Positions 14,186 through 36,189 of a stretch of DNA of 43,786 bases are shown here, piece after piece (within the stretch, counting starts at the first letter, position 1; each line of letters begins with the position of its first letter). The notes under the pieces were generated by a model. The model saw only the letters and a program-made list of their open reading frames with translations. It made no database searches and was not told the origin of the DNA. A program made the translations under genes and the position numbers. Origin of the DNA: a virus; the IMG/VR virus record IMGVR_UViG_3300044814_000073, positions 1-43,786 of that record, one strand, 5' to 3'.

Positions 14186-16377
14186 GGAAACTAATCCTGC
14201 TTTTACTGTTTTGCGCGTCGAGCGTAGCAGCGCAGAATCCGCTCACCTATCAATCCAGCGCGACTGGCAATATCACTGCGACCGGCTCGACTTGCGCGAC
14301 TACTAACGCTTGTTTATCGGTGCATTTGCCTCCAGGAAGCACCAGCGTGGCTGTAACTGTCACCGGCACGTGGTCTGCGACCCTAGTTGTGGAGATGGCC
14401 GCTGATAACGGAGTTACCTGGGTTTCCGCGGGAACTGGACCTTCAGCGAATGGACAGACTACTTACACCCTGACCGCGCAAACAGACTTTCGAGTGCGTT
14501 GCTCGGCATTTACCAGCGGAACAGTAGGAGTTTTTATCAATGTAGCTCCGCCAACGATTGTCAATTTGGGGCCTATTATCAATTCATCGAGCGGGGGCGT
14601 CGGTTCCGGCGCAGCTCCAGTGATGGCCTATTACTTCAGCAATGCCTGCCCGGTAGCGAACACCAGCCAGTGCTACTTCGCTCCATCCAATACACAACTC
14701 GCCAACGATTGCACATGGGCATCCACAGGCACAACTGTGACGTGCGCCACTTCGCACTTTGCCGCCTCCGACGTGGGCAAGCGCGTGGCAGGGTACTTTA
14801 AAACCGACGCTTTTGGTGCCATTTTTGGTTGCGTAGCCGGTCGCATTTCGTTCTCCTCTATGACCACTGGAACGCTAACTATCGCCAGTTTCTCGAGCGC
14901 TACGCAGATAGCACTCTCCGGTAATCCGGCAAACACCGCAACGAGCAACAACGGATGCTTGATTTGGGGAAATCCTGACGATTCCAACGCGGTAACTTTT
15001 GAGACCGCCTACGCCGCAGTATCGGGCTTCTGTCCGAAAGTGATGCTGGCTTCAGCAGGATATTGGTTTAGCTCTCCGCATTTCACTTCACAGCCCGTTG
15101 GATGCGCAGCTCTTCCTGCCAGCGTAGGCGCAACCCTCGGAAACATGGTTTATACGTCAGGCTTTGAGTTAGAAGGACGCGGGCCGGGGAATACTACGAT
15201 TTATCTTGGACCTGACTTCCCAGTAGCCGGGGGAAACCTCTGCACCAATAGTGAAGGCAACATCACCAACGCCTGCTTTCTTGTGCCGGTGGAGGGGAAA
15301 TGGTCAGACCTGCAAATCTCTGGGGGAGGACAGTTAGCTTGCCAAGTAGGCAGTACTAAAATTCTGCTCGGCGTCTCTGTCGGAACGCTGCAAAACATAA
15401 CCCTAACTAATTTTTGCGGAACCGGAGGACAGATCGGTATTGAAGCTGATTTGCTTTCGCAGCTCTACCAAATTAACGACAGCGGCTTTGGTTCTACCTG
15501 TTTGCAAACTGTAACGTCGCAAGGTGCAATCCAAGCGTTCAAACTGGCTTGTGAAAACTCTCCAGCCGTAAATCTGGACATTCGCACCGGAGGTCCAGTC
15601 CCAACCTTTACCTGTTTTGGCTGTTTATTGCTTGGCGCGATCAGTAGCGGCAACATGAATGTCATACAGGTGGCCTCAGGAGCTGAGGTGCATCTAATCG
15701 GCTCGCAAGTGGCCAACTGTGAGTCAGGCAGCGGTTGTTCTACCACCGGCACAACACTGGTTAAGAACAACGGCGGGACTATCTACATAAGCGACGGAAC
15801 GTTGACGCAGCAAGGTGGTGTGAGTGGCTCTGGGGGGGTAACTTGCTTCGTGGCCGGCTGCAAAACTTTCTTTGATCGCACCAACCTAGTCGGTGTGAAT
15901 TATGGTGACATCGGACCTGGCACGATGTACGACCTTGGCGGGAATAGCAACCTTTTTTCTGGCTCTACCCAAGCCGGCGAACTTGGAACCATTCAAGCCG
16001 ATGGCCGTTCTGCAATGTTTAGTTGCACCGGCACCGCGAACGCTTCGATAACGAATAGCCTGTACGGAACAGGTCCCAATGTTACCGCAACCACTTGCGT
16101 CGGGCAGACCGCCACGCTAGGTGCGGGAATCCCTTTTCAGCAAGCCCGAACTATCGTTGGCGTCATCTGCACGTCTAGTGCAACGACAGTTTCCGTAGCC
16201 TGCAAGGTAATGGTCAATGGAAGCGCGGCGAGCACCACTTGCACTATGACCGCAGCCACGCGCTGTGGGAACTTCACCACCACGGCGGTCAATCAGGGTG
16301 ACCTCTTGTCGGCGGAGATTATCACTGGAGCGGCTGAAACAGGAGCCAACATCAAGATGCAGGTGATCTGGCAATGA
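14182..16377 (+). CDS. Exported beta-helix (tailspike-like) protein
   Basis: 731 residues. A Sec signal peptide (MRKLILLLLFCASSVAAQ) leads. A beta-sandwich module of about 100 residues follows (VAVTVTGTWSATLVVEMAAD), then a pectate-lyase-like parallel beta-helix region (about 165-600) rich in Gly/Asn/Thr and in paired Cys, then a C-terminal module ending IKMQVIWQ. Enzyme residues cannot be identified. It sits between portal and scaffold, where P22-like phages normally have nothing. The ATGA overlap with the portal stop fixes the start. A virion tail protein would not normally carry a signal peptide, so it may instead be exported to the host surface. Confidence 0.7.
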   Translation: MRKLILLLLFCASSVAAQNPLTYQSSATGNITATGSTCATTNACLSVHLPPGSTSVAVTVTGTWSATLVVEMAADNGVTWVSAGTGPSANGQTTYTLTAQTDFRVRCSAFTSGTVGVFINVAPPTIVNLGPIINSSSGGVGSGAAPVMAYYFSNACPVANTSQCYFAPSNTQLANDCTWASTGTTVTCATSHFAASDVGKRVAGYFKTDAFGAIFGCVAGRISFSSMTTGTLTIASFSSATQIALSGNPANTATSNNGCLIWGNPDDSNAVTFETAYAAVSGFCPKVMLASAGYWFSSPHFTSQPVGCAALPASVGATLGNMVYTSGFELEGRGPGNTTIYLGPDFPVAGGNLCTNSEGNITNACFLVPVEGKWSDLQISGGGQLACQVGSTKILLGVSVGTLQNITLTNFCGTGGQIGIEADLLSQLYQINDSGFGSTCLQTVTSQGAIQAFKLACENSPAVNLDIRTGGPVPTFTCFGCLLLGAISSGNMNVIQVASGAEVHLIGSQVANCESGSGCSTTGTTLVKNNGGTIYISDGTLTQQGGVSGSGGVTCFVAGCKTFFDRTNLVGVNYGDIGPGTMYDLGGNSNLFSGSTQAGELGTIQADGRSAMFSCTGTANASITNSLYGTGPNVTATTCVGQTATLGAGIPFQQARTIVGVICTSSATTVSVACKVMVNGSAASTTCTMTAATRCGNFTTTAVNQGDLLSAEIITGAAETGANIKMQVIWQ

Positions 16378-17727: not shown

Positions 17728-18966
17728 TTGGCCAACACCTATTTAACCATCGGTATGGTGACCCGCGAAGCTCTGCGGGTACTTGAAAACGAACTCACCT
17801 TCACGCGCAACGTCAACCGAGATTACGACGATCAATTCGGTAAGACTGGCTTCAAAATTGGCAACACCCTCAACGTCAGAAAGCCTGTCCGCGCGGTAAA
17901 CGCTAACGGCCAAGCCCTCATCCTGCAAGACCTGACTGAGCAATCCGTTCCGGTAATCATCAACAAGCAATATCAGCGTTCCTTCGCCATTACTTCCTCC
18001 GATATGAAGCTGAATGTGGATGACTTCTCGAAGCGTTTCGTCAACCCATTCATGCTCTCGATGGCTAACGAAATCGACTACGACGGTCTCCAGCTATTCA
18101 AGACTATCGCCAACGAGGTTGGTACACCGGGAACGATTCCGGCGAATACCAGCGTGTATCTGGCGGCTGGTTCTTTGATGTCCAAGGAAGCCGCTCCTTT
18201 GGGTGGTCGGAAGCTGATGATCAGCCCCGACATGAACGCCACTATCGTGCAGAACCTCCAAGGGTTGTTCAATCCGCAAGTTAGGCTCTCCAAGCAGTAC
18301 ACCAAGGGCATGATTACCGAGCAAACGGTCGGATTTGATTGGTTCATGGACCAAAACGTTGGTCTGCAAACCATCGGGCCTTTGGGGGGTACCCCAACTG
18401 TCAACGCCACCGCTGGACAGGTGGGCTCGGCCATCGTGACCACCGGTTGGACCGCTGCCGCTGTCTTGCGCTTGAAGAAGGGCGATGTGATTCAGTTTGC
18501 CGGCGTCTTTGGCGTCAATCCGCAGAATCGCCAGTCTTACGGTCGCCTCCGCGACTTCGTACTCACTTCGGACTTCTCTTCTGACGGTTCGGGTAACGGC
18601 ACTATCAACATTTCCCCAGCTATCGTTCCACCCAACGCGGACGGTACTAATACCGCTTTACAGAACGTGACCGCAGGCCCGGCAGCCAATGCGGCCATTA
18701 CCGTAAACGGCACTGGCAACGCCAATCTCGCTTCCCCGCGCGGCCTCGCTTTCCATCCCGATGCATTTACCTTCGCCACCGTGGATTTGCCGGAATACGA
18801 AGGGCAGGGCGGGAAGTTTTACCGCGAAATGGACCCCGACACCAAGGTGTCCATGCGCGTAACTCAATTCTACGATGGGAATCTCGATCGAGGAGTGCTG
18901 CGTATCGACGTTCTCGGTGGCTGGGCAACCACGTATCAAGAGTTGGCCACACGGATTGCGAGCTAA
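17728..18966 (+). CDS. Major capsid (coat) protein, P22 gp5 type
   Basis: 412 residues. The N-terminus MANTYLTIGMVTREALRVLE and the following NRDYDDQFGKTGFKIGNTLN plus RSFAITSSDMKLNVDDF match the P22-type coat family with its HK97 fold. The start is TTG at 17728 behind AAAGGAGG at ideal distance, so initiation is strong despite the rare codon. A long structured leader precedes it. It forms the icosahedral shell with the scaffold encoded upstream. Confidence 0.92.
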   Translation: MANTYLTIGMVTREALRVLENELTFTRNVNRDYDDQFGKTGFKIGNTLNVRKPVRAVNANGQALILQDLTEQSVPVIINKQYQRSFAITSSDMKLNVDDFSKRFVNPFMLSMANEIDYDGLQLFKTIANEVGTPGTIPANTSVYLAAGSLMSKEAAPLGGRKLMISPDMNATIVQNLQGLFNPQVRLSKQYTKGMITEQTVGFDWFMDQNVGLQTIGPLGGTPTVNATAGQVGSAIVTTGWTAAAVLRLKKGDVIQFAGVFGVNPQNRQSYGRLRDFVLTSDFSSDGSGNGTINISPAIVPPNADGTNTALQNVTAGPAANAAITVNGTGNANLASPRGLAFHPDAFTFATVDLPEYEGQGGKFYREMDPDTKVSMRVTQFYDGNLDRGVLRIDVLGGWATTYQELATRIAS

Positions 18967-21768: not shown

Positions 21769-22698
21769 ATGAGCCGGGTGAAATTGGCAGGAGGCAGCTA
21801 CACCAGCCAATCGGTTAACGCTGACGCGCAGAGAACCGTGAATCTCTATCCCGAAAGGATTGAATCCGGCGACGGCAATTCAGATGTCGTACTTTACCCC
21901 AGCCCTGGCCTGAAGAAGTTTCTTAGCCTTGTTCCTCCTGTTCCACCTCCAGCACAGCCTTCTATAGCGTTTGGCACTGGCAGTATGCTCGCCGGAGCAT
22001 CCACACTTACATCAGTAATTTTAACCGACCCAGAACTCAATTTTCTTGCTGGCCCATGCACCATTTTGCTGCCTATCACCACGGAATGGGACGGCCCTGT
22101 CGATGGCACACAACCGCGCCAGGTTACTTCAGTAACTGATCTTTTGGGCAATGCTTATACGTCCATCGTTCCCCCTACACCCTATCAGCAAGCTGTGACT
22201 GGGCGGACTCTTTTCAATTTCCAGTTATGGGCGGTAACTATTCCAGCCGGAACGCCTTCTACACCTCCGGCGTATGGAGTAACCATAAATTTCAACCGTG
22301 CCCGTTCGCCTTCTGGCTACGACGGCCTGGCCTTCGCTTCCCTGGTGGGATTTACGCATTGCGCTTCCATTGAATCGCACTCTTCGATAACCAGCGCATT
22401 GGCAGCCACAAATCCTGGCGGGCTTTCTGTGACCACCACAGGGAACCGGGTGATTGTTGCTATCGCCACCATCAACACCACGGCAATTCCGGCATTTGTT
22501 CCCGCAGGCACTTATATCCAATGCGCCGAATTTATAGTGGTCAATTTCGCCAATGTTATTGTCGCCCCGTATGGGACCAATAATTTCCTGATTACTTCTC
22601 CAGCAGGAACTTATGCCCCATCCTGGAATTATTCGGCTATATCGGGAATCGGCAACGCTCAAACAGTCATGGCCATTGTCACTATGGTGCAAGGATGA
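21769..22698 (+). CDS. gp10-like tail accessory protein, N-terminal part with inserted domain
   Basis: 309 residues. Residues 1-50 (GGSYTSQSVNADAQRTVNLY, then VVLYPSPGLKKFL) are the conserved N-terminus of P22 gp10-type packaged-DNA stabilisation proteins. After PGLKKFL the expected beta-propeller is missing. Instead a Pro linker (VPPVPPPAQP) leads to a beta-sandwich-like domain of about 240 residues, with VTDLLGNAYTS and a C-terminus ending IVTMVQG. The propeller resumes in the next gene, coupled by ATGA. I infer that a domain insertion split gp10 in two. Confidence 0.65.
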   Translation: MSRVKLAGGSYTSQSVNADAQRTVNLYPERIESGDGNSDVVLYPSPGLKKFLSLVPPVPPPAQPSIAFGTGSMLAGASTLTSVILTDPELNFLAGPCTILLPITTEWDGPVDGTQPRQVTSVTDLLGNAYTSIVPPTPYQQAVTGRTLFNFQLWAVTIPAGTPSTPPAYGVTINFNRARSPSGYDGLAFASLVGFTHCASIESHSSITSALAATNPGGLSVTTTGNRVIVAIATINTTAIPAFVPAGTYIQCAEFIVVNFANVIVAPYGTNNFLITSPAGTYAPSWNYSAISGIGNAQTVMAIVTMVQG

Positions 22699-24659
22699 GC
22701 GTGCGCGGCGAGTTTCGGATTGATACGCCCAACGGCACCAGGGCCTTCGCTGTGGCCGAGGGCACTTTATTTGAAATCTTCGCCAACGGAACTTCAAACT
22801 CACTTGGCGCGGTGGGCAATGACGGATTCTTGGTTTCCTTTGCCGGAAGTGCTCAGCAACTTTTACTAGCCTCGGCCGGCACGGCTTATGTCTACGATTT
22901 AAACGCCAACACTCTTACCGCGATTGGCGGAGCAACGTTCTCCGGCGCTGTCTCTTTAGTGGGTTACTGCGATGGATTCTTTCTCGCGCTGATCGCCAGC
23001 TCTAATACCTTTTACGTCTCCGCTCCTCTCGATGCCACGGACTGGACTACCAATGGAGCCTCTCTCGTTTCTGTTTTTCCAGACAACTTATTGGGAATGC
23101 TGGTTGACCATCGGGAAGTGTGGTTCTGGAGTGCCACCAGAGCTGTTGTTTACTATGACTCCGGCAACGTCTTCCCCTTTGACGTTGTTCCCGGTGGGTT
23201 TATCGAGCAAGGGCTGGCCGCCAGATTCTCACCAGCCCAACTAGACAACACCATTTTCTGGCTGGGCGCGGACTCCCGCGGCTCGGCAGTGGTTTGGCGG
23301 GCGCAAGGCTACACACCCAGTCGAGTCAGCAACCACGCTATCGAATACGCCATGCAAGGCTATGCGCGGATTGATGACGCTATCGGCTTCAGCTTCCAGA
23401 TGGATGGGCACTATTTCTACCAACTGTACTTCCCTACCGCGAATGCGACTTGGCGCTTCGACGTGGCCACCAATATGTGGCATGAAGTCGGGTACTGGAA
23501 CCTCGCGACCGGGACCTTTATCGCGCACAAAAGCCAAGTTCATGTCTTCGTCTTCGGAAAACATCTGGTGGGCGACTGGGGCAGCGACACGATTTATCAG
23601 ATGGCTATTCCGGTGTACTCCAACGGGGTTTGGTTGTTTGCGGACGATGATGGCAACCCCATTCGCAGAGTACGCAGGATTCCGCATCTCTCCAAGGATC
23701 AGAAAAAACAGGCGCACCACCAATTGCAACTGTATCTCGAAAGTGGGTTGGGGCCGATGCCCCCGCTACCTTCGACAGAAGCGCCCACCACACTCTATTT
23801 AGCCGATCCGACAGGCGTTGTCTGGGCCTTGGGAGTCACCGATGCGGGAGATTTGACCACCACTGCTATCTCAACTCCAATTGCAAACTCACTCACAGCT
23901 ACCGTATCCGGCGCGAACATGAATTACACGCTCAATTATAATTCCTTGAGCGCTTCCTTCACGATTCCAGTGAATCCGACGCCTACTGGATTTGCTGTTG
24001 GCGTGCTCTTTTGGCTTGATGCATCTCCGATAATTATCAATGGGGTGCCTACCACAACTCGCCTGCTTTTTGGTAACGCCGCATTTAACGGTGGAGTGGA
24101 GGCTTACCCAGCGGGTTTCTTCATAACAGGGACGCAGTTATTTTCAGGCACGGAACAGTTCCCAACCATGCTGGCAGGAGTATTCACATTTGCCCCCGGC
24201 CAGCTCCAAATATCCCCAATTCCAGCCCCTGTTCCGAGCACTATTCCAGCAGGAAACATTTTCATTAACGATACTACCGGCACGACTTCCTGGCAGGTAC
24301 AGATTGATGCTGCGGGAATACTTTCCGCTATCCCCACAGGACTAGGGTCTTATCCGCAGAGCTACACGCTTTCTTCCGGCAAAGCTCGCTGGATTCTGCA
24401 AGTCGATAACGTGGGAGTGCTGCAAACCAATTTCAAGGAAAACGTTTCTCGCGCTCCACAGATTAATCTGCGCTGGAGCGATGATGGAGCGCATTCCTTC
24501 AGCAACGAATATTCACAAAGCATGGGAAAAGGCGGGGAGTTTGCCAAGCGGGTGATGTGGCGAAGACTGGGGTTTCCAAGAGACCGGGTATATGAATTTT
24601 CCGGCAGCGATCCTGTGCCCTATCGACTTAATTCAGCATTTTTGGAAGTGGGGGCCTGA
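22695..24659 (+). CDS. gp10-like tail accessory protein, main part with second inserted domain
   Basis: 654 residues. MSVRGEFRIDTPNGTRAFAV and LFEIFANGTSNSLGAVGNDG continue a gp10-type beta-propeller from its usual second segment. FWLGADSRGSAVVWRAQGYT and VATNMWHEVGYW are conserved blades. The end, INLRWSDDGAHSFSNEYSQS, VMWRRLGFPRDRVYEFSGSD, is the characteristic gp10 C-terminus. Between about residues 358 and 594 lies an extra region (APTTLYLADPTGVVWALGV to a second copy-like GNIFINDTTGTTSWQVQID) absent from simple gp10 proteins. It binds the gp4-type ring and closes the tail channel. Confidence 0.75.
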   Translation: MSVRGEFRIDTPNGTRAFAVAEGTLFEIFANGTSNSLGAVGNDGFLVSFAGSAQQLLLASAGTAYVYDLNANTLTAIGGATFSGAVSLVGYCDGFFLALIASSNTFYVSAPLDATDWTTNGASLVSVFPDNLLGMLVDHREVWFWSATRAVVYYDSGNVFPFDVVPGGFIEQGLAARFSPAQLDNTIFWLGADSRGSAVVWRAQGYTPSRVSNHAIEYAMQGYARIDDAIGFSFQMDGHYFYQLYFPTANATWRFDVATNMWHEVGYWNLATGTFIAHKSQVHVFVFGKHLVGDWGSDTIYQMAIPVYSNGVWLFADDDGNPIRRVRRIPHLSKDQKKQAHHQLQLYLESGLGPMPPLPSTEAPTTLYLADPTGVVWALGVTDAGDLTTTAISTPIANSLTATVSGANMNYTLNYNSLSASFTIPVNPTPTGFAVGVLFWLDASPIIINGVPTTTRLLFGNAAFNGGVEAYPAGFFITGTQLFSGTEQFPTMLAGVFTFAPGQLQISPIPAPVPSTIPAGNIFINDTTGTTSWQVQIDAAGILSAIPTGLGSYPQSYTLSSGKARWILQVDNVGVLQTNFKENVSRAPQINLRWSDDGAHSFSNEYSQSMGKGGEFAKRVMWRRLGFPRDRVYEFSGSDPVPYRLNSAFLEVGA

Positions 24660-24922
24660 TGGCGCAAAATAAATTCCCTCGCTTATCGCCCTTCGATACT
24701 CGCACCAAGTTTGTGGAAGATAACCCGCAAGGCAGCGGAATAGCGAGACCGCATACCCAATGGCTGCAAAAAGTTGGCGTGCTAATTAATCAGGCGCCGC
24801 AAATCGTGGATGTGCCAGCGACTTTAACGTCTCCTGGAGTTCCCGGCGACATGGCTTTCGATCACAGTTTCGTTTATGGGTGCATCGCTCCAAATGTTTG
24901 GAAGAAAGTAGCGTGGATGTGA
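24659..24922 (+). CDS. Hypothetical tail-region protein, 87 aa
   Basis: It begins one base inside the previous stop. The C-terminal half (SPGVPGDMAFDHSFVYGCIA, NVWKKVAWM) is a short beta module that I recall from several phage structural genes. No gp26-like coiled coil is visible, so this is not an obvious needle, although its position after gp10 matches where gene 26 lies in P22. Confidence 0.55.
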   Translation: MAQNKFPRLSPFDTRTKFVEDNPQGSGIARPHTQWLQKVGVLINQAPQIVDVPATLTSPGVPGDMAFDHSFVYGCIAPNVWKKVAWM

Positions 24923-25710
24923 GTTTTCTGGCTCCTATCATCGGAGGAGTAGGTTCCATCTTAGGCGGAATCCTTGGCAGTGGCGCGGCTAAAGATGCTG
25001 CTGCTGCTCAAGCTGGGGCTTCTGGTCAAGCGGCCAACAATGCCGCGAATCAAGGCGCGGCTTCCAACACTTACCAGAAACAAATTGCCGGCCAGCAAAC
25101 CGGACTGCTTAGTCCCTACGCCACGGCGGGCCAAGGAGCCGTCTCAAATCTTTCGCAACTCTTGCAGCCGGGCGGACAACTCACGCAAGGCTACGGAGAC
25201 TTCACCGCGCCTACGGGAGTCACGGAACAAAACGATCCAGGCTATCAATTCAGACTTTCGCAAGGACTCAGTGCCTTGCAGAACTCTGCGGCATCCCGAG
25301 GAGGATTACTTTCCACCGGCACCGCGAAAAACATCAATGATTACGCGCAAAATTCCGCTTCCAATGAATACGGCAATGTCTATAACCGCGCTCTGGGGAC
25401 TTATCAGACGAATCAGCAGAACTTCAACACAAATAACAACAATCTTTATAGCCGTCTGTCTGGGCTTTCGGGGCAAGGGTTGCAAGCAGGAAGCTCGCTA
25501 GGCGGGATGCTGCAATCTGGAGCAAGCAACGTCGCAGGCATCAACGCCAACGAAGCGCAGCAATACGGCTCAGCGATTCAGAATCAGGGTGCAGCGACAG
25601 CCAGTGGATATATCGGAAGTGCGAACGCCTGGCAAGGGGCTCTCGGTGGAGCAGTAAACAATCTGGGCGGGTATCTCTCAGATAAATTCCCAGTTGGAGG
25701 ACAGGGCTAA
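24919..25710 (+). CDS. Putative ejection / DNA transfer protein (gp7-like position)
   Basis: 263 residues from the GTG at 24919 that overlaps the previous stop (GTGA). An in-frame ATG at 24880 would lie fully inside the previous gene. The N-terminus is Gly-rich and hydrophobic (PIIGGVGSILGGILGSGAAK), like membrane-active ejection proteins. A Gln/Asn/Ser-rich body follows with FRLSQGLSALQNSAASRGGL and NDYAQNSASNEYGNVYNRAL, a signature I recall from podovirus injection proteins. It is probably ejected into the host envelope with the genome. Confidence 0.65.
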   Translation: MSFLAPIIGGVGSILGGILGSGAAKDAAAAQAGASGQAANNAANQGAASNTYQKQIAGQQTGLLSPYATAGQGAVSNLSQLLQPGGQLTQGYGDFTAPTGVTEQNDPGYQFRLSQGLSALQNSAASRGGLLSTGTAKNINDYAQNSASNEYGNVYNRALGTYQTNQQNFNTNNNNLYSRLSGLSGQGLQAGSSLGGMLQSGASNVAGINANEAQQYGSAIQNQGAATASGYIGSANAWQGALGGAVNNLGGYLSDKFPVGGQG

Positions 25711-25711
25711 A

Positions 25712-27340
25712 ATGGGAATCCCGCTTGTCGCCCTGATGGGCCAGCAGCCGAAAATTACTGACTACCAGACCATGCAAGCCAATGCTGCGGGCATCCAGAA
25801 CATGCGCGGGCAAAACGCCCTTCAACCCGGTCAATTAGTGCAGCAGCAACAGCAGATCGAATTACAACGGCGTCAGATGGCTGACCAAGACGCCCTAACC
25901 AAAACGATGCAGGATTGGGATGGAAAGGATTTGATGGCTATCCCAAGTCTAGTTTTGAAACATGGCGGCTCGGGGCAATCTGCGATAGCTCTAAAGTCTG
26001 CGTTTATCAACCAGCAAAAGGATTTGACCGGATTGAACGAAAGCCAATTAACGCTCGCAGACATGAAGGCCGATCATTGGACTCAAGCCTTAGACGATGT
26101 AGCGAAAGCGCCAGAAGAGCAGAGGGCTGTTCTTCTGGAACAGGCCAAGGCAAACGCGGTACAGAAGGGTTGGGCAACGCCGCAGGAAGCTCAAGCGGTA
26201 AATTATCAGAACCCGCAGCAATTCGATGCTCTCCGCAAAATGGCCATGGGTCACAAAGCTGCCATCGCGGAAGTCAAAGCTCAAGCGGAGACAGCGGAAG
26301 CGAGCGGCAAGGCGGCAGAATCCCAGGCCAAACTCCCTGGTGAGCAAGCCGAATCCACCATCAAGGGCGTTCAGGCAAAAATGATAAGCGGTGCGCAGCC
26401 GGGAACCTTCGACACCGCCATTGACCAAATCGCGCCACCGACAGGCCCCAACGCGGCTCTAAATGCCCGCACCAAAGTAATGGTGAACTCCGCACTGGGC
26501 CGGGGCGATCTTGAGGGCGCTAAAAAGGCGCTGACGGATGCATCTACGCAGCTCGGGAGTCTAGAAAAGGAAACCAGCCCTCAAGTACTGCAATTCAAGG
26601 CGCGGGAAGCGGCCAACTCCGCGGCGATTCAGCAAGCCATCAAAAATGGCAGCGCGGAAGATGCCGGGAAGATGTTGGCTCAACGCATTGTGGCGCCTTC
26701 TGAAATTGCGGCTCGCAGTAATCCATCATTTCTTGTGCAGGCCAACAAAGCTGCACTCAAATATGATCCGACCTATAGCGCAGAAAAAGCCGATGCAGAC
26801 TTCAACGTCGCGAAGGCTCCGGCTAACGTGGCTTTCTTTGGCTCCGCCAATTCACTCACGAACAAGGGCGGTACGCTCGATCAGTTGGAAGCGCAATATA
26901 AGAAATTGCCAAGCGCAGCTCGTAAAATCCCTCTGTTCAACACCATTGGAGACTACCTGAGTTATCACGGCGGCGGCCCTGGCATGGCGGGATTCATGCA
27001 GACGGCTCTCGCGGCCGCTGACGATTACGCCAAAGTTGTGGGCGGTGGAGTCGGCACGGATACTTCGCGGTTACAGTTCATGCAGACCTTTAGTCACGCG
27101 CAAAGCCCGGAACAATTCAAAGCCTCTATTGATGCCGCTCGCGCTGGCGTGGGTTCGCAGCAAGACGCACGCATCGGCAGCAATCCCATTTTGAAAAATA
27201 TGTATGGCGGGGGCACGGCAGCGTCTCGCACGACTACAGGAGGAGCAGTAAAAATGAAGTCTCCTACTGGGCAAATTAAAGAAGTGCCAGCCGATCAAGT
27301 GGATCACTACAAATCCAAAGGAGCGGTAATCGTTCAATGA
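25712..27340 (+). CDS. Putative ejection protein, large helical (gp20-like position)
   Basis: 542 residues from the ATG at 25712. It is mostly helical, Ala/Gln/Lys-rich, with PQGxxVQQQQQIELQRRQ-type coiled coil near the start and many AEVKAQAETAEASGK repeats. The C-terminal third is more globular (FNTIGDYLSYHGGGPGMAGF, FMQTFSHAQSPEQFKASIDA). It ends in a small module with the MKSPTGQIKEVPADQVDHYK pattern seen in phage minor virion proteins. No enzymatic motif is visible. Confidence 0.65.
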   Translation: MGIPLVALMGQQPKITDYQTMQANAAGIQNMRGQNALQPGQLVQQQQQIELQRRQMADQDALTKTMQDWDGKDLMAIPSLVLKHGGSGQSAIALKSAFINQQKDLTGLNESQLTLADMKADHWTQALDDVAKAPEEQRAVLLEQAKANAVQKGWATPQEAQAVNYQNPQQFDALRKMAMGHKAAIAEVKAQAETAEASGKAAESQAKLPGEQAESTIKGVQAKMISGAQPGTFDTAIDQIAPPTGPNAALNARTKVMVNSALGRGDLEGAKKALTDASTQLGSLEKETSPQVLQFKAREAANSAAIQQAIKNGSAEDAGKMLAQRIVAPSEIAARSNPSFLVQANKAALKYDPTYSAEKADADFNVAKAPANVAFFGSANSLTNKGGTLDQLEAQYKKLPSAARKIPLFNTIGDYLSYHGGGPGMAGFMQTALAAADDYAKVVGGGVGTDTSRLQFMQTFSHAQSPEQFKASIDAARAGVGSQQDARIGSNPILKNMYGGGTAASRTTTGGAVKMKSPTGQIKEVPADQVDHYKSKGAVIVQ

Positions 27341-28629
27341 GTGCTGGACCACAAGTAGATTGGTTTTCACAAAACGCTCCGGCAAATGCTGCCACTAGCA
27401 GTGGAGATTGGTTTGCCGATAATGGTCCTTCGTCCGCTGAGCCTTCGACATATCAGAAATTGACTGCTGTAGACCAAACCACACAAAACCCTGCATTACG
27501 ATTTCTCTCCAATGTTGGAGGAGCGGTTATAGGTGCCCCAGCAGCAATAGGTTCGGCCATCCTTCATCCCGTGGATACCGTCAACAATATCGGAAAATCG
27601 GTAAACGATGCGCTAGATACCTATGCCAATCCCGCAACCCGGCCAAGCTGGGAAGGAATCAAGAGCGTCCTTCCTGAAGCGCTAGGCCTCGGCACTGGAA
27701 ACGTGGCAGCGGGAGAAATCGGCGGCGCGGCTCTCAAAGGTGGAACTGCGGCAGCTAAAAGCCTAGTTCCTAAGGGCGTTCCCGAATATCTCTATCGCAC
27801 CGCTTTGAAGCCATCCACAACAATTCCACAGGCTCGCGCGAATACCATGATTCAAACAGGATTGCAGAACTCTATTCCTGTGAGTGCCGGGGGGTTGGAG
27901 AAAATCGGCAGCCTGATTGACGACTTGAACGACAAGATCAAAACCACCATTGATAATGGCGCTAATCAATTGGTGAGGCGTCCAGACGGAACAATTCAGC
28001 AAGGTGTGACTGTCAATAAGTTCAAAGTTGCTTCGCGCCTTGGAGACACCACCCAGAAATTCAGCACGCAGGTCAATCCAGCATCGGACCTCAACGCTAT
28101 TTCTGAATCAGGGAATGAGTTTCTACAAAGTCAGCCAAATGAAATCCCTGCCAGTCAAGCGCAAGCACTGAAGCAAGGAACCTATCAGCAATTAAAGAAT
28201 GCTGCCTATGGAACGCTCAAGCCCGCAGCGGTAGAAGCCCAGAAAGCTCTAGCGCGCGGCATCAAGGAAGAACTGGTAAACCAATTCCCTGAAATCAAGG
28301 ACCTCAATGCTCAAGATTCAAAACTCATTGACTTAGATGGAGTCCTTGAAAAAGCGGTCAATCGGATTGGCAATCACCAAGTCATCGGAATCGGCACACC
28401 GATCATGGCTGGCGCGGCTAAAGCAGTTACTGGAAGCACGGGAGCCGCAGCCGTAGTGGGAATGATGAAAGGCGTTTTAGACAATCCATTGGTCAAATCA
28501 CGGATAGCGATTGCACTTGCCAGAAAGGGTGTTTCTCTGCCCGGAGCTATGAATCGGATTTCTGCTTATTCCGCTGCTCTCGGCGCTGGCGCCAATGCTG
28601 CGCAGAACGGTGGTCAAGAAAACCAATGA
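27337..28629 (+). CDS. Putative ejection protein (gp16-like position)
   Basis: 430 residues. The N-terminus carries twin short motifs (VDWFSQNAP and GDWFADNGP) that also occur in other phage internal proteins. An amphipathic, Gly/Ala-rich central part follows (GGAVIGAPAAIGSAILHPVD, GAGAALKGG-type), then helices from about residue 180, and another Gly/Ala membrane-like stretch near the end. Coupled by ATGA to the gene before and the gene after. It would complete the trio of ejected proteins. Confidence 0.6.
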   Translation: MSAGPQVDWFSQNAPANAATSSGDWFADNGPSSAEPSTYQKLTAVDQTTQNPALRFLSNVGGAVIGAPAAIGSAILHPVDTVNNIGKSVNDALDTYANPATRPSWEGIKSVLPEALGLGTGNVAAGEIGGAALKGGTAAAKSLVPKGVPEYLYRTALKPSTTIPQARANTMIQTGLQNSIPVSAGGLEKIGSLIDDLNDKIKTTIDNGANQLVRRPDGTIQQGVTVNKFKVASRLGDTTQKFSTQVNPASDLNAISESGNEFLQSQPNEIPASQAQALKQGTYQQLKNAAYGTLKPAAVEAQKALARGIKEELVNQFPEIKDLNAQDSKLIDLDGVLEKAVNRIGNHQVIGIGTPIMAGAAKAVTGSTGAAAVVGMMKGVLDNPLVKSRIAIALARKGVSLPGAMNRISAYSAALGAGANAAQNGGQENQ

Positions 28630-29915
28630 ACCAATTAATGGTCAATGCACCAGCCAACGCAATGACGATAGCTTCTAGCACGGCACTGACTCTAAGCCTA
28701 AAAACAGCGGCCCGTCTAGTAATACTTAGTATAATTTTTGTGCTGCTGGGCGTGTCTGCCAATGCGCAAGTCTCGCCTTATCCCTTTGTGAGGCCGCAAT
28801 TCCTTGATAACACAGGTAAACCTCTTGCTGGTGGGAAACTCTGGACTTATCAGAGCGGCACCAGCGTCCAACAAGCAACCTATTGTGATGCGCTCGGCAC
28901 GGTGCTCAATCAAAATCCAATTATCATGGACGCCGGAGGGCGCCCCGCTGGGACGGCAGGCTCAAGTAGTTGCGGCATCTTCCTTGGCGCGAACGCCTAC
29001 AAATTTGTCCTGCAGAACTCGCTCGGCTCGCAGATATGGTCTATCGACAACATTGCAGCCTCTAGCACAAGTCTTTTAGCCTCAGCGAATACTTGGACCG
29101 GAACTAATCAATGGCAAAATAACTCGACATTCAACGGCCCGGTTTCGATGAATGTCGGCTTTACAAGCACAGGACCTAATTTCCTGTCTGGTGGTGGAAG
29201 TCTAACCGGAACATGGTCAGGCGGGCCTATCTTCTCCGGGCTACCAAACTTCTCTGGCGGCTTCCTCGCTACCACTGGGACCTTCTCAGGACAGATCACC
29301 AGCACGCTAGCGACTGGCACAGCGCCCTTTGTTGTTACTTCCACTACGGTAGTGCCCAATTTGAATGCCTCACTCTTGGGTGGTTGTTACTGGGCTGCTC
29401 CCTGCCCCATTGGCTCATTAACTCCAACTACCGGAGTATTTACGGCTCTGACCGCCAATACCAGTTTCACACTGAATGGCGGAACAACACAGATAGGCAC
29501 GCAAGGAACTGGGACCAAGTTGCTCACTGCGGGAACGGTGACAGGCAATTCCAAGTTTCTGTGTACGGACAACGTGGGTGGAGGGTCTGCGACAACGGCG
29601 AATTGCCCTTCCATCCCTGTAAACGTCCAGAACTTCACCTTTTGCCCTTCCGGCTGCAACATCACCGGCACGCCTTGCAGCACCAGCGGAGCTTCCTACG
29701 CTAAATGCTCCACCACCATCAATTTGCCAGCGCCGTACACGGACACCAACTATGCGGTGGTCTGCCAAGGGATAACTTCTACGCAATTCCCGTATATCGA
29801 CAGCGTTGCGAAGACTTCTTCCAGTTCGATCACGGTGGTGATCGCTAACGGCACATCGAACGGGGCCATGGTCTCTACGTATCAAGAATTGGACTGCCAA
29901 TCGAGTCACAATTGA
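28626..29915 (+). CDS. Tailspike / tail-fibre protein with N-terminal signal peptide
   Basis: 429 residues. Residues 1-47 contain a signal peptide-like helix (LVILSIIFVLLGVSANA). The mature start (YPFVRPQFLDNTGKPLAGGK, LWTYQSGT, then IIMDAGGRPAG) is the widely found virion-binding head domain of phage tailspikes. A Thr/Gly-rich fibre shaft and a Cys-rich C-terminal knob (FCPSGCNITGTPC, YAKCSTTI) follow, probably for receptor binding. The combination of a virion-attachment domain and a signal peptide is contradictory for a normal tail protein. An internal ATG (MTIASS...) is an alternative start that keeps the helix. Confidence 0.7.
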   Translation: MNQLMVNAPANAMTIASSTALTLSLKTAARLVILSIIFVLLGVSANAQVSPYPFVRPQFLDNTGKPLAGGKLWTYQSGTSVQQATYCDALGTVLNQNPIIMDAGGRPAGTAGSSSCGIFLGANAYKFVLQNSLGSQIWSIDNIAASSTSLLASANTWTGTNQWQNNSTFNGPVSMNVGFTSTGPNFLSGGGSLTGTWSGGPIFSGLPNFSGGFLATTGTFSGQITSTLATGTAPFVVTSTTVVPNLNASLLGGCYWAAPCPIGSLTPTTGVFTALTANTSFTLNGGTTQIGTQGTGTKLLTAGTVTGNSKFLCTDNVGGGSATTANCPSIPVNVQNFTFCPSGCNITGTPCSTSGASYAKCSTTINLPAPYTDTNYAVVCQGITSTQFPYIDSVAKTSSSSITVVIANGTSNGAMVSTYQELDCQSSHN

Positions 29916-30433
29916 GGGAAGTTTAAGTGAGCGAATTCTCCATGAAATTGTTTAGCAGCTTTATCGTATGCATGGGCCGCTTCTTCTCTAGTGGAAAAGA
30001 GTCCGATATAAATATGGCGACCCTTAAAACCGAGCGAGGCCTCCCACGGTTTAGGTCCAAATTCTTTGTGAAAAGAAATTCCTTTATACCCAGAAATATT
30101 GGTTTTGCGAATTTTCCTGTTCCAGGCATTTTGTGCAACCGTACATTTTCGCAAATTCTCTCTTCGATTATCGAGGCCATCACCATTTTTGTGGTCGCCT
30201 TCTTCTTCCGGTTTGCAGTCAAGTATAAAACGATGCATACGAATCCCCTGCTTACAGCGGAGGGCATAAAACTTTCTACTTGTATGAGTACGAACAGCAC
30301 ACCAGTTCCATTGCGAAAGATATTCAAAATCTTCCACATCTACAATTGCGTTTTGGCCTTGCGTCAGTGGGATAAATCGGTAAGGCTTGTCGAGCGGCTG
30401 AGAAACCGTGTGTCGTTTCACGCGGCGTTTCAT
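29906..30433 (-). CDS. HNH-AP2 homing endonuclease
   Basis: 175 residues, antisense to the tail operon. VDVEDFEYLSQWNWCAVRTH, then MHRFILDCKPEEEGDHKNGD, GLDNRRENLRKCTVAQNAWN is an HNH core with the DH..N..DNR..NLR pattern. SGYKGISFHKEFGPKPWEAS and YIGLFSTREEAAHAYDKAAK form a C-terminal AP2 DNA-binding domain. Its end overlaps the end of the tailspike gene by ten bases, and its start lies 21 bases before the likely start of the next tail gene, so it sits exactly in a gene junction. Confidence 0.88.
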   Translation of the reverse strand: MKRRVKRHTVSQPLDKPYRFIPLTQGQNAIVDVEDFEYLSQWNWCAVRTHTSRKFYALRCKQGIRMHRFILDCKPEEEGDHKNGDGLDNRRENLRKCTVAQNAWNRKIRKTNISGYKGISFHKEFGPKPWEASLGFKGRHIYIGLFSTREEAAHAYDKAAKQFHGEFAHLNFPQL

Positions 30434-30454
30434 TGGTCCACCTCTAATGGACTA

Positions 30455-32476
30455 GTGAATTTCAGCCGCATTTTAGCATGTTTTACACTATTTTCTCTGC
30501 TTAGTTTTCCGACTTACGCGCAGAACGTGTCGGAAATGCTGGCAGGCACTAATCCTCAAACCGGGACAAGCTACACCTTCGCCGCTACCGATGTGGTCTT
30601 CCTCGTTACGTTCAGCAATTCAGCGCCAGTCTCGGTCACGTTGCCGCCCGCTACTACTCCCGGATTTGGGGCTGGGCAAAGATTCCTAGCTAAGAATATC
30701 GGCACCAGCAACGTAACAATTACTTCAACCTCGACCATCAATGGCACTGGTAATTCCGTGTTACTTACCACCGGCCAGAACGTAACTTTCATCAGCGATG
30801 GGTCCAACTACACAACTACCGGAGGTGCGGGAAGCGGTGCCAGCGGTGGCGGTAATGCATCGTCCTTAAACGTCATACCCAAAGGTACAGGTCCGGGGCT
30901 CACGCTCGTAGACTCGACCTGCTCGGATGATGCGGTTAACCCAGTGCGCTGCACCCATGGCTTGAACGTCGCTGCGGGAGGCATCGTCAACGAACGCGCC
31001 AATAACGCTTCGACAGGCACCATATTAAATAGGGTCGTCTGCAATGATGGTACAGGGTTAGCGGTGGTCTGCGGCGCAAACGCTACCACGGGAATTCTAG
31101 GCTTTGCTCAGGCTGTCGCGGGAACCACCGGAAACGTTCTTATCTGCAAGCTCATCACTTGTGCGGCGACTTTCGACAATCAATCGGTGGTGAACGATTA
31201 CGCCATTGTTTCCACTAGCGGACAATTGCACGATACCGGCAGTTCGGCAATCACGCCCAGCAATACCAATTTTCTGGTGATTACTGCCAACGCTGGCGCG
31301 GGCACGATTGGATACGTCTCGCCTCCCGGTGACCTAACAGGCGGCAGCGTAGCCAGTACACCGGGCTTTGCCAATCCTATGACCACGCTGGGAGACATCA
31401 TTTATGGAGGAGCGGCGGGAGCGGCTACACGCTTAGCTGGAGCCACAACGCTCAACGGCGTACCACAAAATTACGTTTCTATTGCCTCTGGTGGAGTAGC
31501 TACTGCTCCAAGTTTGCAGCCTGGTGGCGTAGTTCCCCGCTTCGTAGTCGGCACCAGCGACACCATTGTGCTCACAGACCGCGGAAAGTTCATTCAATAC
31601 ACCAACGCCTCGCCCGTAGCGGTCACTGTGCCTCAAGCCGGTTCAACCAACTTTGCCAGTAATTTTTATTTCTGCACCGAGAATCGCGGAGCAGGAACCG
31701 TAACTTTCACGCCCACGACTTCAACAGTCAACGGTGGCGCTACTTATGCATTGACGCAGAACAATTCTGTTTGTTTCGTCAGCGACAATGCCAATTATGT
31801 GACGAAAGATAATGCTACCGCAGGAGCGGGAACCGTCTCCGTAACCGGCACGCCAGTCAGCGGCAATCTTGCTAAGTTTTCTGGTGTGGCCTCGATCACC
31901 AATGGAGATTTTAGCGGAGATGGCACCACTAACGGAACGCTGGCCCTGACTATTACCAAAACCAATGGAACCACTTTTGCTCCGTCAGCCACGGTAGACA
32001 CCACCAATGCTTCCAACATTAGCACTGGAACTTTAGCCGCAGCCCGCGTGGCTACGCTTAACCAAAGCACTTCTGGAAACGCCGCGACAGCCACGGCCTT
32101 GGCTTCCACGCCCACGCTTTGTTCCAGCGGACAAGCTCCGCGCGGAGTTCTGGCCAGTGGCAACGCCACGGGGTGTCAGGCTTATACCGTTACGATTGCT
32201 AATGGCACCGCTGCCCTTGGGACCAGCGCTATTTCTTCGGGAACCTGCGCCACGGTGGTGACTGCAGCGGCCACCGGAACAGCTACCACAGATAACCTCA
32301 TGGCCGATTTCAATGCCGATCCTACTTCACTTACCGGCTATTCTCCATCTGCAAGCGGAATGCTGACCATCATCAAATGGCCTACTACGAACACGATCAA
32401 CATAAAAGTTTGTAACAATACAGCATCGTCAATTACTCCTAGCGCGGTGACTCTAAATTGGCGCGTGGTGCGCTAG
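30455..32476 (+). CDS. Tail-fibre-like protein with signal peptide
   Basis: 673 residues from the GTG at 30455. The frame stays open upstream for 176 codons, but those are antisense to the HNH gene. The start gives a clean signal peptide (FSRILACFTLFSLLSFPTYA). A module of about 80 residues occurs twice (APVSVTLPPATTPGFGAGQR and SPVAVTVPQAGSTNFASNFY, each ending in a VSFISDG/CFVSDN-NY motif). Repetitive Thr/Ala/Asn shaft repeats follow, and the C-terminus INIKVCNNTASSITPSAVTL-NWRVVR is a common phage fibre tip ending. There is no strong ribosome site before the GTG, so the HNH insertion may have removed the original start. Confidence 0.65.
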   Translation: MNFSRILACFTLFSLLSFPTYAQNVSEMLAGTNPQTGTSYTFAATDVVFLVTFSNSAPVSVTLPPATTPGFGAGQRFLAKNIGTSNVTITSTSTINGTGNSVLLTTGQNVTFISDGSNYTTTGGAGSGASGGGNASSLNVIPKGTGPGLTLVDSTCSDDAVNPVRCTHGLNVAAGGIVNERANNASTGTILNRVVCNDGTGLAVVCGANATTGILGFAQAVAGTTGNVLICKLITCAATFDNQSVVNDYAIVSTSGQLHDTGSSAITPSNTNFLVITANAGAGTIGYVSPPGDLTGGSVASTPGFANPMTTLGDIIYGGAAGAATRLAGATTLNGVPQNYVSIASGGVATAPSLQPGGVVPRFVVGTSDTIVLTDRGKFIQYTNASPVAVTVPQAGSTNFASNFYFCTENRGAGTVTFTPTTSTVNGGATYALTQNNSVCFVSDNANYVTKDNATAGAGTVSVTGTPVSGNLAKFSGVASITNGDFSGDGTTNGTLALTITKTNGTTFAPSATVDTTNASNISTGTLAAARVATLNQSTSGNAATATALASTPTLCSSGQAPRGVLASGNATGCQAYTVTIANGTAALGTSAISSGTCATVVTAAATGTATTDNLMADFNADPTSLTGYSPSASGMLTIIKWPTTNTINIKVCNNTASSITPSAVTLNWRVVR

Positions 32477-33208
32477 ATGAAGATCAACCGCAGAAAATTT
32501 ACAGGTCACCTAGTTGGCGCGGCAGCTCTCCTTGCGGGATTGGCGCCTACAGCCAAGGCTACAGGGATTGCTTTCGTGCAATCGGCCAACAGCGTGGGAA
32601 CCACTTCGCCTTCGGTGACTTTTGGCTCCAACAACACTGCTGGGAATCTGCTCATTCTAGTCTCGCGCATGACCACTGCGACAGCTCATACGGTTAGCGA
32701 CACACAAGGCAATACCTGGGTCTCAGCCATCGCTTTCTTGGGCGTTCCTTCGCAGGGAAATTATGTTTTTTGGTACGCGCTGAACTGTTTTGGCGGGGCC
32801 AACACCGTAACTCTGGGAAGCGCTAACTTTTATCAGACCATTGTGGCTGAATATTCCGGCGTTACCGGAGTTACAGGCACCCCGGCGTCCATCAACATAA
32901 ATACCAATACCACCACGCCATCGGTCGGCCCGATAACTCCCGCCACCACGAATAATTTGGTGGTCGCTATGTTCGCCAACGAAGATTCCAATTCAACGGT
33001 TTATTCCAGTCCTGGCGGAGGATTTACGCTCAGACCTGATGACGGCTGCACCATTATTATGGATTTAATTCAAACTTCCGCTACCACAGCCACAGCAAGC
33101 CTGACCTCTTCCGTGGCCTTTAATGAAGGTGGGGGAATCATTGTGGCTTTTTCCGCTCCAGGGGGAAGTGTCACTTCGCAAATCGGCGGATTTTTGGTTG
33201 GACCGTGA
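32477..33208 (+). CDS. Tat-exported beta-sandwich protein
   Basis: 243 residues. The N-terminus NRRKFTGHLVGAAALLAGLA ending KAT is a twin-arginine signal: RRKF, then a weakly hydrophobic stretch and an Ala-rich cleavage region. The body (TFGSNNTAGNLLILVSRMTT, VSDTQGNTWVS, LVVAMFANEDSNSTVYSSPG) is a jelly-roll-like fold that I recall from phage and soil-bacterial surface proteins. It resembles the domain inserted in the gp10-like gene at 21769. It directly abuts the previous stop. Folded export would place it in the periplasm or outside. Confidence 0.6.
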   Translation: MKINRRKFTGHLVGAAALLAGLAPTAKATGIAFVQSANSVGTTSPSVTFGSNNTAGNLLILVSRMTTATAHTVSDTQGNTWVSAIAFLGVPSQGNYVFWYALNCFGGANTVTLGSANFYQTIVAEYSGVTGVTGTPASININTNTTTPSVGPITPATTNNLVVAMFANEDSNSTVYSSPGGGFTLRPDDGCTIIMDLIQTSATTATASLTSSVAFNEGGGIIVAFSAPGGSVTSQIGGFLVGP

Positions 33209-33216
33209 AAGACTGA

Positions 33217-36189
33217 ATGAAAAAAATCATCCTATTACTCACACTTGTAACCCTCTGGGGCTCTAAAGCGCAAGCCTCCAACCTTGTCTATATTTCACAA
33301 TCCGGCGCTGGCGACCAGAGCGGCCTAACCGATTGCACTCACGCCAAGCCGGTTACCTATTTTAACACCGGAGGTAACTGGTCAGGAACACCTACAGGAG
33401 TGCAGATCGGGCCGGATACCACTGTGCATCTTTGCGGAACGATCACCACTAGCCTTTCCTGGCAGGGCAGCGGCACTAGCGGTCACCCGATTACGATGTT
33501 TTTCGAGACGGGAGCGAAACTAATGCAGGCTTTTTGCGGCGCTGGCGGCGGCTCGGCCTGCATGACCCTGAACGGGAACGCTTGGTGGATCATCGACGGT
33601 GGAGTGGCCTGCGGAACTACGGCAGGTGGCATCCCGTCTGGCATAACCTGTAACGGGCAAATCGGTACGAACAACAACGGCACCGTGCTGGCCAATCAGA
33701 ACGGAGACAATCCCGGACTTGACGCCGGTGGCACCAATCAGGGAGAAATTAAAAACCTAGAAGTTGGTCCCATCTATGTCAGAACTTCCACTACAGACGA
33801 ACATCCCGACTCCGGCAACAACGAAAAACCTTGGGCAATAGGATTGAGTGGAGGAAGCTTCACCGGCTCCACCAACATCAGCATCCATGACGGCAAGGTC
33901 CATGACGCCAACTGGTCAATCACCATGCTTTCCGAGTTCGTGAATAACGGACCACTTACGATCTATAACGAGGACAGCTACAACGACAATCACGCCATCG
34001 CTGTCGGAGTGTTAGATAATTCCAGCCTGGGAATCACCATCCACGATATGCATTTCGGTTCGATGGTGAACTGGGACGATGTTTGCCCAACCCCCTGCAA
34101 TTTCCATCACGATGGATTTCACGCTTACACCAATGCTTTCGACGGGCGGGTGATCTTCAATTTGTACAACAGCCTGTTCGACGGCGACTGGGGTCTGGAC
34201 ACCACTGCGCACATTTTCGCTGAAGGTTCGGTATCTGGGAACATTTTCAACAACGTTTTCATCACTCAGTCGAACCGTAATATGTCCAATGGCTCGTTCA
34301 ACAACATCAACAACGCCAGTGGCGGGACGAACGTAAAGACCATCGGCTTCTATAATAATTCATTGATTTACCTGACTACCGCGAACGTAAATGGAAGTCC
34401 GCTCCTAGTCTCCGGCACTGTGGACGTGCGCAATAACGCAATTACTTACGCCAATACCAACAGCCCGAATATCGTTTCCGGGCAAGGCGCTACAGGCACA
34501 TGGGATTACAATGCCTACGCCAGCCCCTTGCCGAGCTCGCAATTGTTCACCATAACTGGCTCAGGAAATCAGTTGACCTATGCCCAGTGGAAAGCTACGC
34601 CACTGACTCCTGATTCGCATTCTCCGGCTATTCAATCGCCACCAATGAACTTAAATACTGTTACGGGAGTTCCCCAAGCAGGCCCTCCACTAAATGCTGG
34701 CTTCAATCTCACGTCATTAGGAATCGCGGCATTAAACGCAGATAAGAACGGTGTAGCGCGTCCATCCACAGGTCCGTGGACTATTGGAGCTCTGAATCCA
34801 GGAAACACGCCTCCAGCTCCAGGTCTAGCCATTACGCCTAATCCCGCCTCGTTTGGCTCAGTAAATGTAGGCTCAGGCAGTTCCCCGGTAACGCTGACGG
34901 TCACCAGCAACGCAACCGCGACAGCCACACTGAGTGCTTCGATTGCCACCTTCAGCGACCCGCAATTCGCTCGCACTGGGGGGACTTGTACTCCCAGTCA
35001 ATCGCTCATTGTGGGCGCCACGTGCACAATAATTGGAGTTTTTACGCCCACCTCTGCCGGCGTCAAGAACGCCACAATCACCGTAGGAGCCAATACTACC
35101 GCCTCCGCAGGGCTTTCCGGCACCGGGACGGCTGGAACGGCTTCTATGAGCGCAACTCCCTCGAACTGGAACTTCGGCAATGTGACTCAAGGAACTCCCA
35201 GCGCCATCGAGACCTTCGTAGTCACTAATACCGGTTCAACCAGCATCACCATGTCAACCCCGGTAACGACGTTCTCAGGAACAAATGCGGGAGATTTTAC
35301 ACTGTCAGGCGTTCCAACCAATCAGTGTACTTCAGGGCTAATCTTGGCGCCGGGTGGCACTTGCCAGAAATCCATCATCGTTACGCCGTCTATCATCGGA
35401 GCGGAATCCGCCACTGCTACCTTTTCTTCCACCACCGCCAGCGTATTAGCTACTCTGACAGCCACAGGAACGGCTGTATCGATTCCCAGCCTGCTTGTCA
35501 CGCCCCGGCCGCTGATCTTGTCACCTACCGTGCAAGGGCAGACCAGCCCAACTGTTACAGGAACTATTACAAACAACGGTAACGTATCGGTCACATTAGT
35601 AGCCTCCAATCCCATCACTATCACCGGAGCGTTGCTGGCCGACTTCTCACTCAGTTCCAATGCCTGCACGCCCAATCTGGTGCTGGCTGTCGGTGCTACG
35701 TGCACCTTCAATGTCAGTGCGATACCCTCCGGTGTGACGCTGGAGCAAGTCAACCTCACCGTCACCGCCACTAATACAACGAACACGGTAGCCTTGCAGA
35801 TTCAGGGCTTGCCTATCGCCCCCATTCCTGCTCCATCGCCAGCTTTCATCATCTCGACGCAGATCGACCTGTTCCCGATGCCTAAAGTGACGATTACCGG
35901 GCTTAATTTTGTGGTAGGAAAGACACAGATAACGATAGATGGGAGCCCGCAAGCTACGATTTGCGCCTCTACGACAAGCTGTACGACGATTCTTTCGTCC
36001 GCGGTGTTACTTCCCTGGCTTTGGGGTAATTGGGCACGCGATAGGTCTGAAATAATGTCTCGCGCCACTCCTGCATCAGCACGTCAAAGGGCACAAGACC
36101 GCCTTCTAGCCACAGATATTCAACAACCCCCAAGGGAGTCTTCACCAATTTTCGCCGGACGCTCATCTTGGCGGGAGTGTAACACATAG
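33217..36189 (+). CDS. Exported beta-helix protein with choice-of-anchor-D repeats
   Basis: Up to 990 residues. Signal peptide MKKIILLLTLVTLWGSKAQA. A right-handed beta-helix of the pectate-lyase-like kind follows to about residue 520 (NNVFITQSNRNMSNGSFNNI type turns), with many Cys. Three SPD-2/Hydin-type repeats start near 537, 642 and 754 (NPASFGSVNVGSGSSPVTLT and NWNFGNVTQGTPSAIETFVV), and an IPT-like domain begins near 885. The last 60 residues turn Arg/Pro/Ser-rich and lie opposite a plausible minus-strand gene, so the true end may be earlier or frameshifted. It is probably extracellular, as a surface adhesin or depolymerase-like protein. No catalytic residues are identified. Confidence 0.6.
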   Translation: MKKIILLLTLVTLWGSKAQASNLVYISQSGAGDQSGLTDCTHAKPVTYFNTGGNWSGTPTGVQIGPDTTVHLCGTITTSLSWQGSGTSGHPITMFFETGAKLMQAFCGAGGGSACMTLNGNAWWIIDGGVACGTTAGGIPSGITCNGQIGTNNNGTVLANQNGDNPGLDAGGTNQGEIKNLEVGPIYVRTSTTDEHPDSGNNEKPWAIGLSGGSFTGSTNISIHDGKVHDANWSITMLSEFVNNGPLTIYNEDSYNDNHAIAVGVLDNSSLGITIHDMHFGSMVNWDDVCPTPCNFHHDGFHAYTNAFDGRVIFNLYNSLFDGDWGLDTTAHIFAEGSVSGNIFNNVFITQSNRNMSNGSFNNINNASGGTNVKTIGFYNNSLIYLTTANVNGSPLLVSGTVDVRNNAITYANTNSPNIVSGQGATGTWDYNAYASPLPSSQLFTITGSGNQLTYAQWKATPLTPDSHSPAIQSPPMNLNTVTGVPQAGPPLNAGFNLTSLGIAALNADKNGVARPSTGPWTIGALNPGNTPPAPGLAITPNPASFGSVNVGSGSSPVTLTVTSNATATATLSASIATFSDPQFARTGGTCTPSQSLIVGATCTIIGVFTPTSAGVKNATITVGANTTASAGLSGTGTAGTASMSATPSNWNFGNVTQGTPSAIETFVVTNTGSTSITMSTPVTTFSGTNAGDFTLSGVPTNQCTSGLILAPGGTCQKSIIVTPSIIGAESATATFSSTTASVLATLTATGTAVSIPSLLVTPRPLILSPTVQGQTSPTVTGTITNNGNVSVTLVASNPITITGALLADFSLSSNACTPNLVLAVGATCTFNVSAIPSGVTLEQVNLTVTATNTTNTVALQIQGLPIAPIPAPSPAFIISTQIDLFPMPKVTITGLNFVVGKTQITIDGSPQATICASTTSCTTILSSAVLLPWLWGNWARDRSEIMSRATPASARQRAQDRLLATDIQQPPRESSPIFAGRSSWRECNT
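35969..36187 (-). CDS. Possible small antisense gene, 72 aa
   Basis: The product reads naturally (VRRKLVKTPLGVVEYLWLEG, VLMQEWRETLFQTYRVPNYP), with aromatic and charged residues as in a folded protein. The overlapping plus-strand frame is compositionally odd here. There is no good ribosome site, and an ATG at 36166 is an alternative. Either it is a real antisense gene or it marks a recombination scar at the end of the beta-helix gene. Confidence 0.3.
   Translation of the reverse strand: MCYTPAKMSVRRKLVKTPLGVVEYLWLEGGLVPFDVLMQEWRETLFQTYRVPNYPKAREVTPRTKESSYSLS

Follow-up and report, generated by a model that had tools for sequence, protein, structure and literature searches.

The window, the whole stretch of 43,786 bases that was analyzed (IMG/VR record IMGVR_UViG_3300044814_000073), is the genome of a P22-like podovirus. 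A profile search of the window matched the portal to PF16510 (E 5e-121) and the coat protein to PF11651 (E 2e-38), and P22-like portal, coat, gp4/gp10-type neck, and ejection genes are all found in it. The tail genes, here called A to D or named by their start positions, follow the ejection genes. The features discussed below are these:

12059..14185, + strand: P22-like portal; no signal
14182..16377, + strand: fifth signal-bearing, cysteine-rich protein, between portal and scaffold; predicted signal 14182-14232
17728..18966, + strand: P22-like coat protein; 0 cysteines, no signal
22695..24659, + strand: gp10-like head-closure protein; no signal
24880..28629, + strand: three ejection-type genes directly 5' of the tail genes, assigned by position; no signals, one cysteine in total
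28626..29915, + strand: tail gene A, putative tailspike or fiber with signal, P22-type head-binding domain, and cysteine-rich C-terminal tip
28626..28766, + strand: signal peptide predicted for tail gene A, 47 amino acids counted from the first ATG
28770..29054, + strand: head-binding domain of tail gene A, residues 49-143, N-terminal in the predicted mature protein
29658..29912, + strand: C-terminal tip region of tail gene A, with cysteines conserved in the alignment
29906..30433, - strand: antisense HNH/AP2 endonuclease gene that separates tail genes A and B
30455..32476, + strand: tail gene B; predicted signal 30455-30520; C-terminus shows no relationship to the one in the sister phage
32477..33208, + strand: tail gene C; predicted signal 32477-32560, which contains a twin-arginine motif; the protein weakly matches a minor tail protein family
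33217..36189, + strand: tail gene D; predicted signal 33217-33276; three choice-of-anchor-D repeats

The gp10 gene is apparently split across two open reading frames (21769-24659), and its first half holds an inserted domain that is different in relatives. Elsewhere in the record, a small protein (5580-6095, - strand) combines a Sec-type signal with a PEP-CTERM-like C-terminus (PF07589, slightly below the cutoff), an exosortase-type sorting signal within a phage genome. The genome also carries an IS1595/ISXO2-type transposase gene (38932-39858, - strand), and at its right end (43231-43785, - strand) a peptide of Gly/Tyr/Ser repeats.

Export signals and cysteines in the tail genes

Signals were called with a home-made rule for n, h, and c regions, supplemented by inspection. 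The first version of the rule passed over genuine-looking signals (for example, those of L097, 32477, and 33217) and was loosened for the window. It then flagged 28626, 30455, 32477, 33217, and 14182, along with a few other window genes that are mostly weak or membrane-like, and it flagged no portal, scaffold, coat, neck, or ejection gene in the window. The preliminary description had held that the genes at 28626, 30455, 32477, and 33217 start with export signals; the open reading frames do lie there, and the rule flags all four. By the same rule, n, h, and c regions and a signal peptidase I-type site are present in tail genes A to D and in 14182. The N-termini, with the predicted cleavage site marked by a caret, read as follows:

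28626: ...LKTAARLVILSIIFVLLGVSANA^QVSPYPF; counted from the first ATG, the n-region is rather long
30455: VNFSRILACFTLFSLLSFPTYA^QNVSEM; GTG start, no clear Shine-Dalgarno sequence
32477: MKINRRKFTGHLVGAAALLAGLAPTAKA^TGIAF
33217: MKKIILLLTLVTLWGSKAQA^SNLV
14182: MRKLILLLLFCASSVAA^QNPL; good Shine-Dalgarno sequence

Two details of the preliminary description need adjusting. The four tail genes all bear signals, as it said, but they are not strictly consecutive, the antisense HNH gene separating the first two. Of its Sec or Tat assignments, Tat is uncertain for 32477: this gene has the twin-arginine motif RRKFTG, but the gene that occupies its position in the sister phage (G004) starts with an ordinary Sec signal. 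The ATG of 28626 and the stop codon that ends the last ejection gene overlap (ATGA), and 28626 therefore belongs to the late operon.

The predicted mature proteins contain 12 (28626), 12 (30455), 2 (32477), 17 (33217), and 29 (14182) cysteines, in agreement with the cysteine content earlier remarked on for 28626 and 33217. Signal-bearing tail proteins are mostly cysteine-rich, at about 1 to 4 per 100 residues, and the other virion proteins have 0 to 1 per 100. Across the window's lineage, the ejection proteins adjoining signal-bearing tail genes mostly have 0 cysteines and the rest are near 0, while cysteines are enriched in the head-binding genes of the lineage versus those of controls (p = 2e-6).

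Head-binding domain and signals among relatives

Residues 49-143 of 28626 match the N-termini of tail fibers or tailspikes in 45 phage records, several of them so annotated, and the head-binding profile matches the PDB tailspike domains 7eeq (E 1e-15) and 9vyg. An AlphaFold model of the domain, based on an alignment of sequences from the window and other retrieved loci, has a pLDDT of 83 and matches the Pan3, Pam1, P22, and Sf6 tailspike structures in the PDB with probability 1.00; no other fold came anywhere near these matches in the structure search with the domain model. The full-length model of 28626 (pLDDT 42) was used for the domain only. Since profile and model both match PDB tailspikes, the head-binding domain claimed earlier is borne out, and 28626 is a predicted tailspike with such a domain. 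The domain is not N-terminal in the primary product, which carries a 47-amino-acid signal-type extension, and comes to the N-terminus only in the predicted mature form. 28626 is the sole P22-type head-binding protein found in the window genome, and nine other records of the lineage likewise have one match each. The exception is G008, with three tandem head-binding genes, each with a signal; tandem copies there (L029 and L155) lie about 494 bases apart and are either real or an assembly repeat.

A scan with the whole 28626 protein returned the sister phage alone, and the head-binding alignment brought many more homologs, the domain-only scan yielding 80 viral loci and 41 genome loci. These split in two: at a majority of loci the gene begins at the domain, as in ten related phage records where it begins 3 to 10 residues before it and has no signal, and at a minority it begins with a signal. 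The predicted cleavage point of the signal-bearing homologs coincides with the N-terminus of the signal-less ones, and, judged from these alignments, the signal is an addition to the head-binding domain. Among loci with gene calls, the head-binding gene has a signal in 10/10 members of the window's lineage versus 0/64 control loci (Fisher p = 1e-12), so that the signal-plus-tailspike architecture that was to be looked for in relatives does recur there. A chance origin of the signals is ruled out by these counts together with the results of the rule.

In the sister phage, signals are kept on A and B despite diverged sequence, and the C-terminal tip of B is swapped between the two phages. G007, G010, and L184 have three or four tail genes in a row that bear signals, and two to four such genes occur in G009, G005, and L183. 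Both L183 and L184 were found through tail gene B, not A, and both have a signal on A too, which is a successful prediction. On a gp10 tree, the eleven signal-bearing members form a near-single clade, requiring a minimum of 2 changes versus a mean of 10.4 after shuffling, and one of the 2 is the long-branch row L107. The trait is therefore old, and repeated convergent gains are not needed to explain it.

The trait also follows the host phylum. Signals were present in 12/13 Acidobacteriota genome matches versus 1/38 in other phyla (p = 1e-9), the Acidobacteriota members being not fully independent, their set enlarged by targeted phylum- and order-level searches, and several of them lying outside recognizable P22-like prophages; in the first scan alone the counts were 3/3 versus 1/38 (p = 4e-4). 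The exceptions are G203, an acidobacterial match without a signal, and one Hyphomicrobiales bin with one. P22-like prophages with the signal trait are found in the Acidobacteriota bins G002 and G003, of which G002 is a Candidatus Sulfopaludibacter with a 446-kb contig whose coat protein is 51% and portal 38% identical to those of the window. Glutamine stands at +1 in 21/28 phage tail signals (assigned partly by eye), 10/21 acidobacterial host signals, and 1/16 proteobacterial signals. The host of the window phage is probably an acidobacterium. Three further genes with a signal and a head-binding domain (L138, L139, and L140, in G251, G291, and G001) lie in Acidobacteriota chromosomes with no P22-like genes recognized nearby, and they may be prophage remnants, parts of other phages, or domesticated fibers.

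A proposed periplasmic route for the spikes and its alternatives

Export of the tail proteins, which accounts most simply for what the sequences show, is strongly supported: conservation of the predicted signals, the phylum association, the cysteine content, and the cleavage position all back the earlier suggestion of true export. As for what the exported proteins do, we consider it somewhat probable that the products of tail genes A to D are receptor-binding spikes and fibers of a P22-like Acidobacteriota phage, which would be exported through Sec, acquire disulfides in the periplasm, and dock at lysis. The tip swapping in B and the conserved tip cysteines in A fit receptor-binding proteins. 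The spikes would be made as Sec precursors, one of them possibly a Tat precursor, and the chains would cross the inner membrane, where removal of the signal would expose an N-terminus equal to that of the signal-less homologs. Disulfides would form in the periplasm, where the spikes would be stored; heads, necks, and ejection proteins would meanwhile come together in the cytoplasm. The two pools would meet at lysis, and the head-binding domain would dock the spikes on the tail hub of spikeless heads as the last step. Since the neck hub, the partner of the head-binding domain, is made without a signal, the spike would not reach it before the membrane gives way. P22 adds its tailspike at the end of assembly, and this also works outside cells; it is from this precedent that we infer docking at lysis, and for this reason that we propose periplasmic folding and storage before it.

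That no export happens at all would require either other start codons or another use for the hydrophobic N-termini. In-frame GTG or ATG codons do occur downstream of the signal in most homologs, but they lack ribosome-binding sites, their positions are not conserved, and two homologs have none; moreover, a noncoding stretch would not retain signal character over deep divergence. We regard an annotation artifact of this kind as barely credible and reject the internal-start reading, and the export signals withstand this check on the preliminary description. It is also highly unlikely that the N-termini are uncleaved virion parts, membrane-active or hub-inserting helices of proteins that stay in the cytoplasm. 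The length of some n-regions speaks for this reading, as does the fact that cleavage is a prediction, yet it has to contend with a full set of n, h, and c regions whose cleavage sites are mostly of the form AxA^Q, a +1 glutamine preference common to acidobacterial secreted proteins, the cysteine enrichment, and signal-less homologs that manage without any such helix.

The exported proteins might instead work chiefly at the infected cell or lysogen or in its surroundings, where they could block receptors to superinfecting phages, trim the capsule, or function as adhesins. The signals themselves are compatible with this, as are the chromosomal genes of G001, G251, and G291 described above and the signal-bearing, tail-fiber-like MAT proteins of Bdellovibrio, which are surface-displayed (PMC10769870). 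We nevertheless judge it unlikely. 28626 retains a virion head-binding domain, the sole one in the genome; it lies in the late operon after the ejection genes, a gene order that points to late expression; and a virion without another spike would have no adsorption device. Domain searches of the signal-bearing tail proteins turned up neither an outer-membrane anchor nor an autotransporter or sorting domain. Surface masking or lysogenic conversion is thus less likely as the main role, and a secondary surface role beside the virion role is possible. A dual use, in which exported spikes freed at lysis would go both onto virions and loose into the surroundings, clearing polysaccharide or binding debris, seems to us quite unlikely: each genome has several different signal-bearing proteins, perhaps more than one attachment site needs, and ASH/Ig-type domains are typical of secreted proteins, but domain searches recognized no enzyme domain in the signal-bearing proteins. 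Of the two alternatives in the preliminary description, an unusual tail assembly route fits better, because 28626 has the sole head-binding domain and lies in the late operon and because tips swap, and receptor masking, capsule editing, and lysogenic conversion found no support.

Known systems and biological meaning

The tailspikes of P22 (gp9) and Sf6 and of the cyanophages Pam1 and Pan3 resemble 28626 in the head-binding fold, which is N-terminal in its predicted mature form, and all are late genes of a P22-like morphogenesis module. They start directly with the domain and have no signal, whereas the window has a signal, extra cysteines, and further signal-bearing tail genes. In the surface-displayed MATs of Bdellovibrio, the signal is followed first by a beta-rich domain and next by a fiber (PMC10769870); signal, beta-rich domain, and fiber with varied tips are common to both systems, but MATs are chromosomal and serve the predator surface, whereas the window genes lie in a phage late operon and carry a virion head-binding domain. 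In four Burkholderiales prophages (L110, L112, L114, and L127), a second tail-module protein similarly has a Sec-type signal, but the head-binding protein has none, cysteines are low, and one or few genes bear signals. An alphaproteobacterial bin (L136) also has a tail-module gene with a Sec-type signal and a head-binding gene without one. These cases rule out the idea that phage tail signals are confined to Acidobacteriota, and, given the Burkholderiales second tail genes, the phenomenon may be wider.

What seems new here is a P22-type tailspike carrying a predicted export signal. In a literature search that reached a minority of subscription journals, no paper described a Sec signal on the head-binding tailspike of a tailed phage, and there was no precedent for spike assembly from a periplasmic pool. 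To our knowledge, tailed phages are held to assemble wholly in the cytoplasm, and we know of none that assembles its spikes from a periplasmic pool. Whether a whole clade of Acidobacteriota tailed phages builds its virion in two compartments, with cytoplasmic heads and necks and Sec-exported, disulfide-bonded periplasmic spikes joined only at lysis, is in our estimation evenly balanced. On that scheme the signal would help to recognize the tail-protein genes of poorly known Acidobacteriota phages from sequence, and perhaps also their hosts, and such phage genes should not be annotated as bacterial secreted proteins. If the spikes do mature in the periplasm, phage assembly would include the Sec and disulfide machinery of the host, lysis would itself be an assembly step, and unattached spikes could be shared between co-infecting phages.
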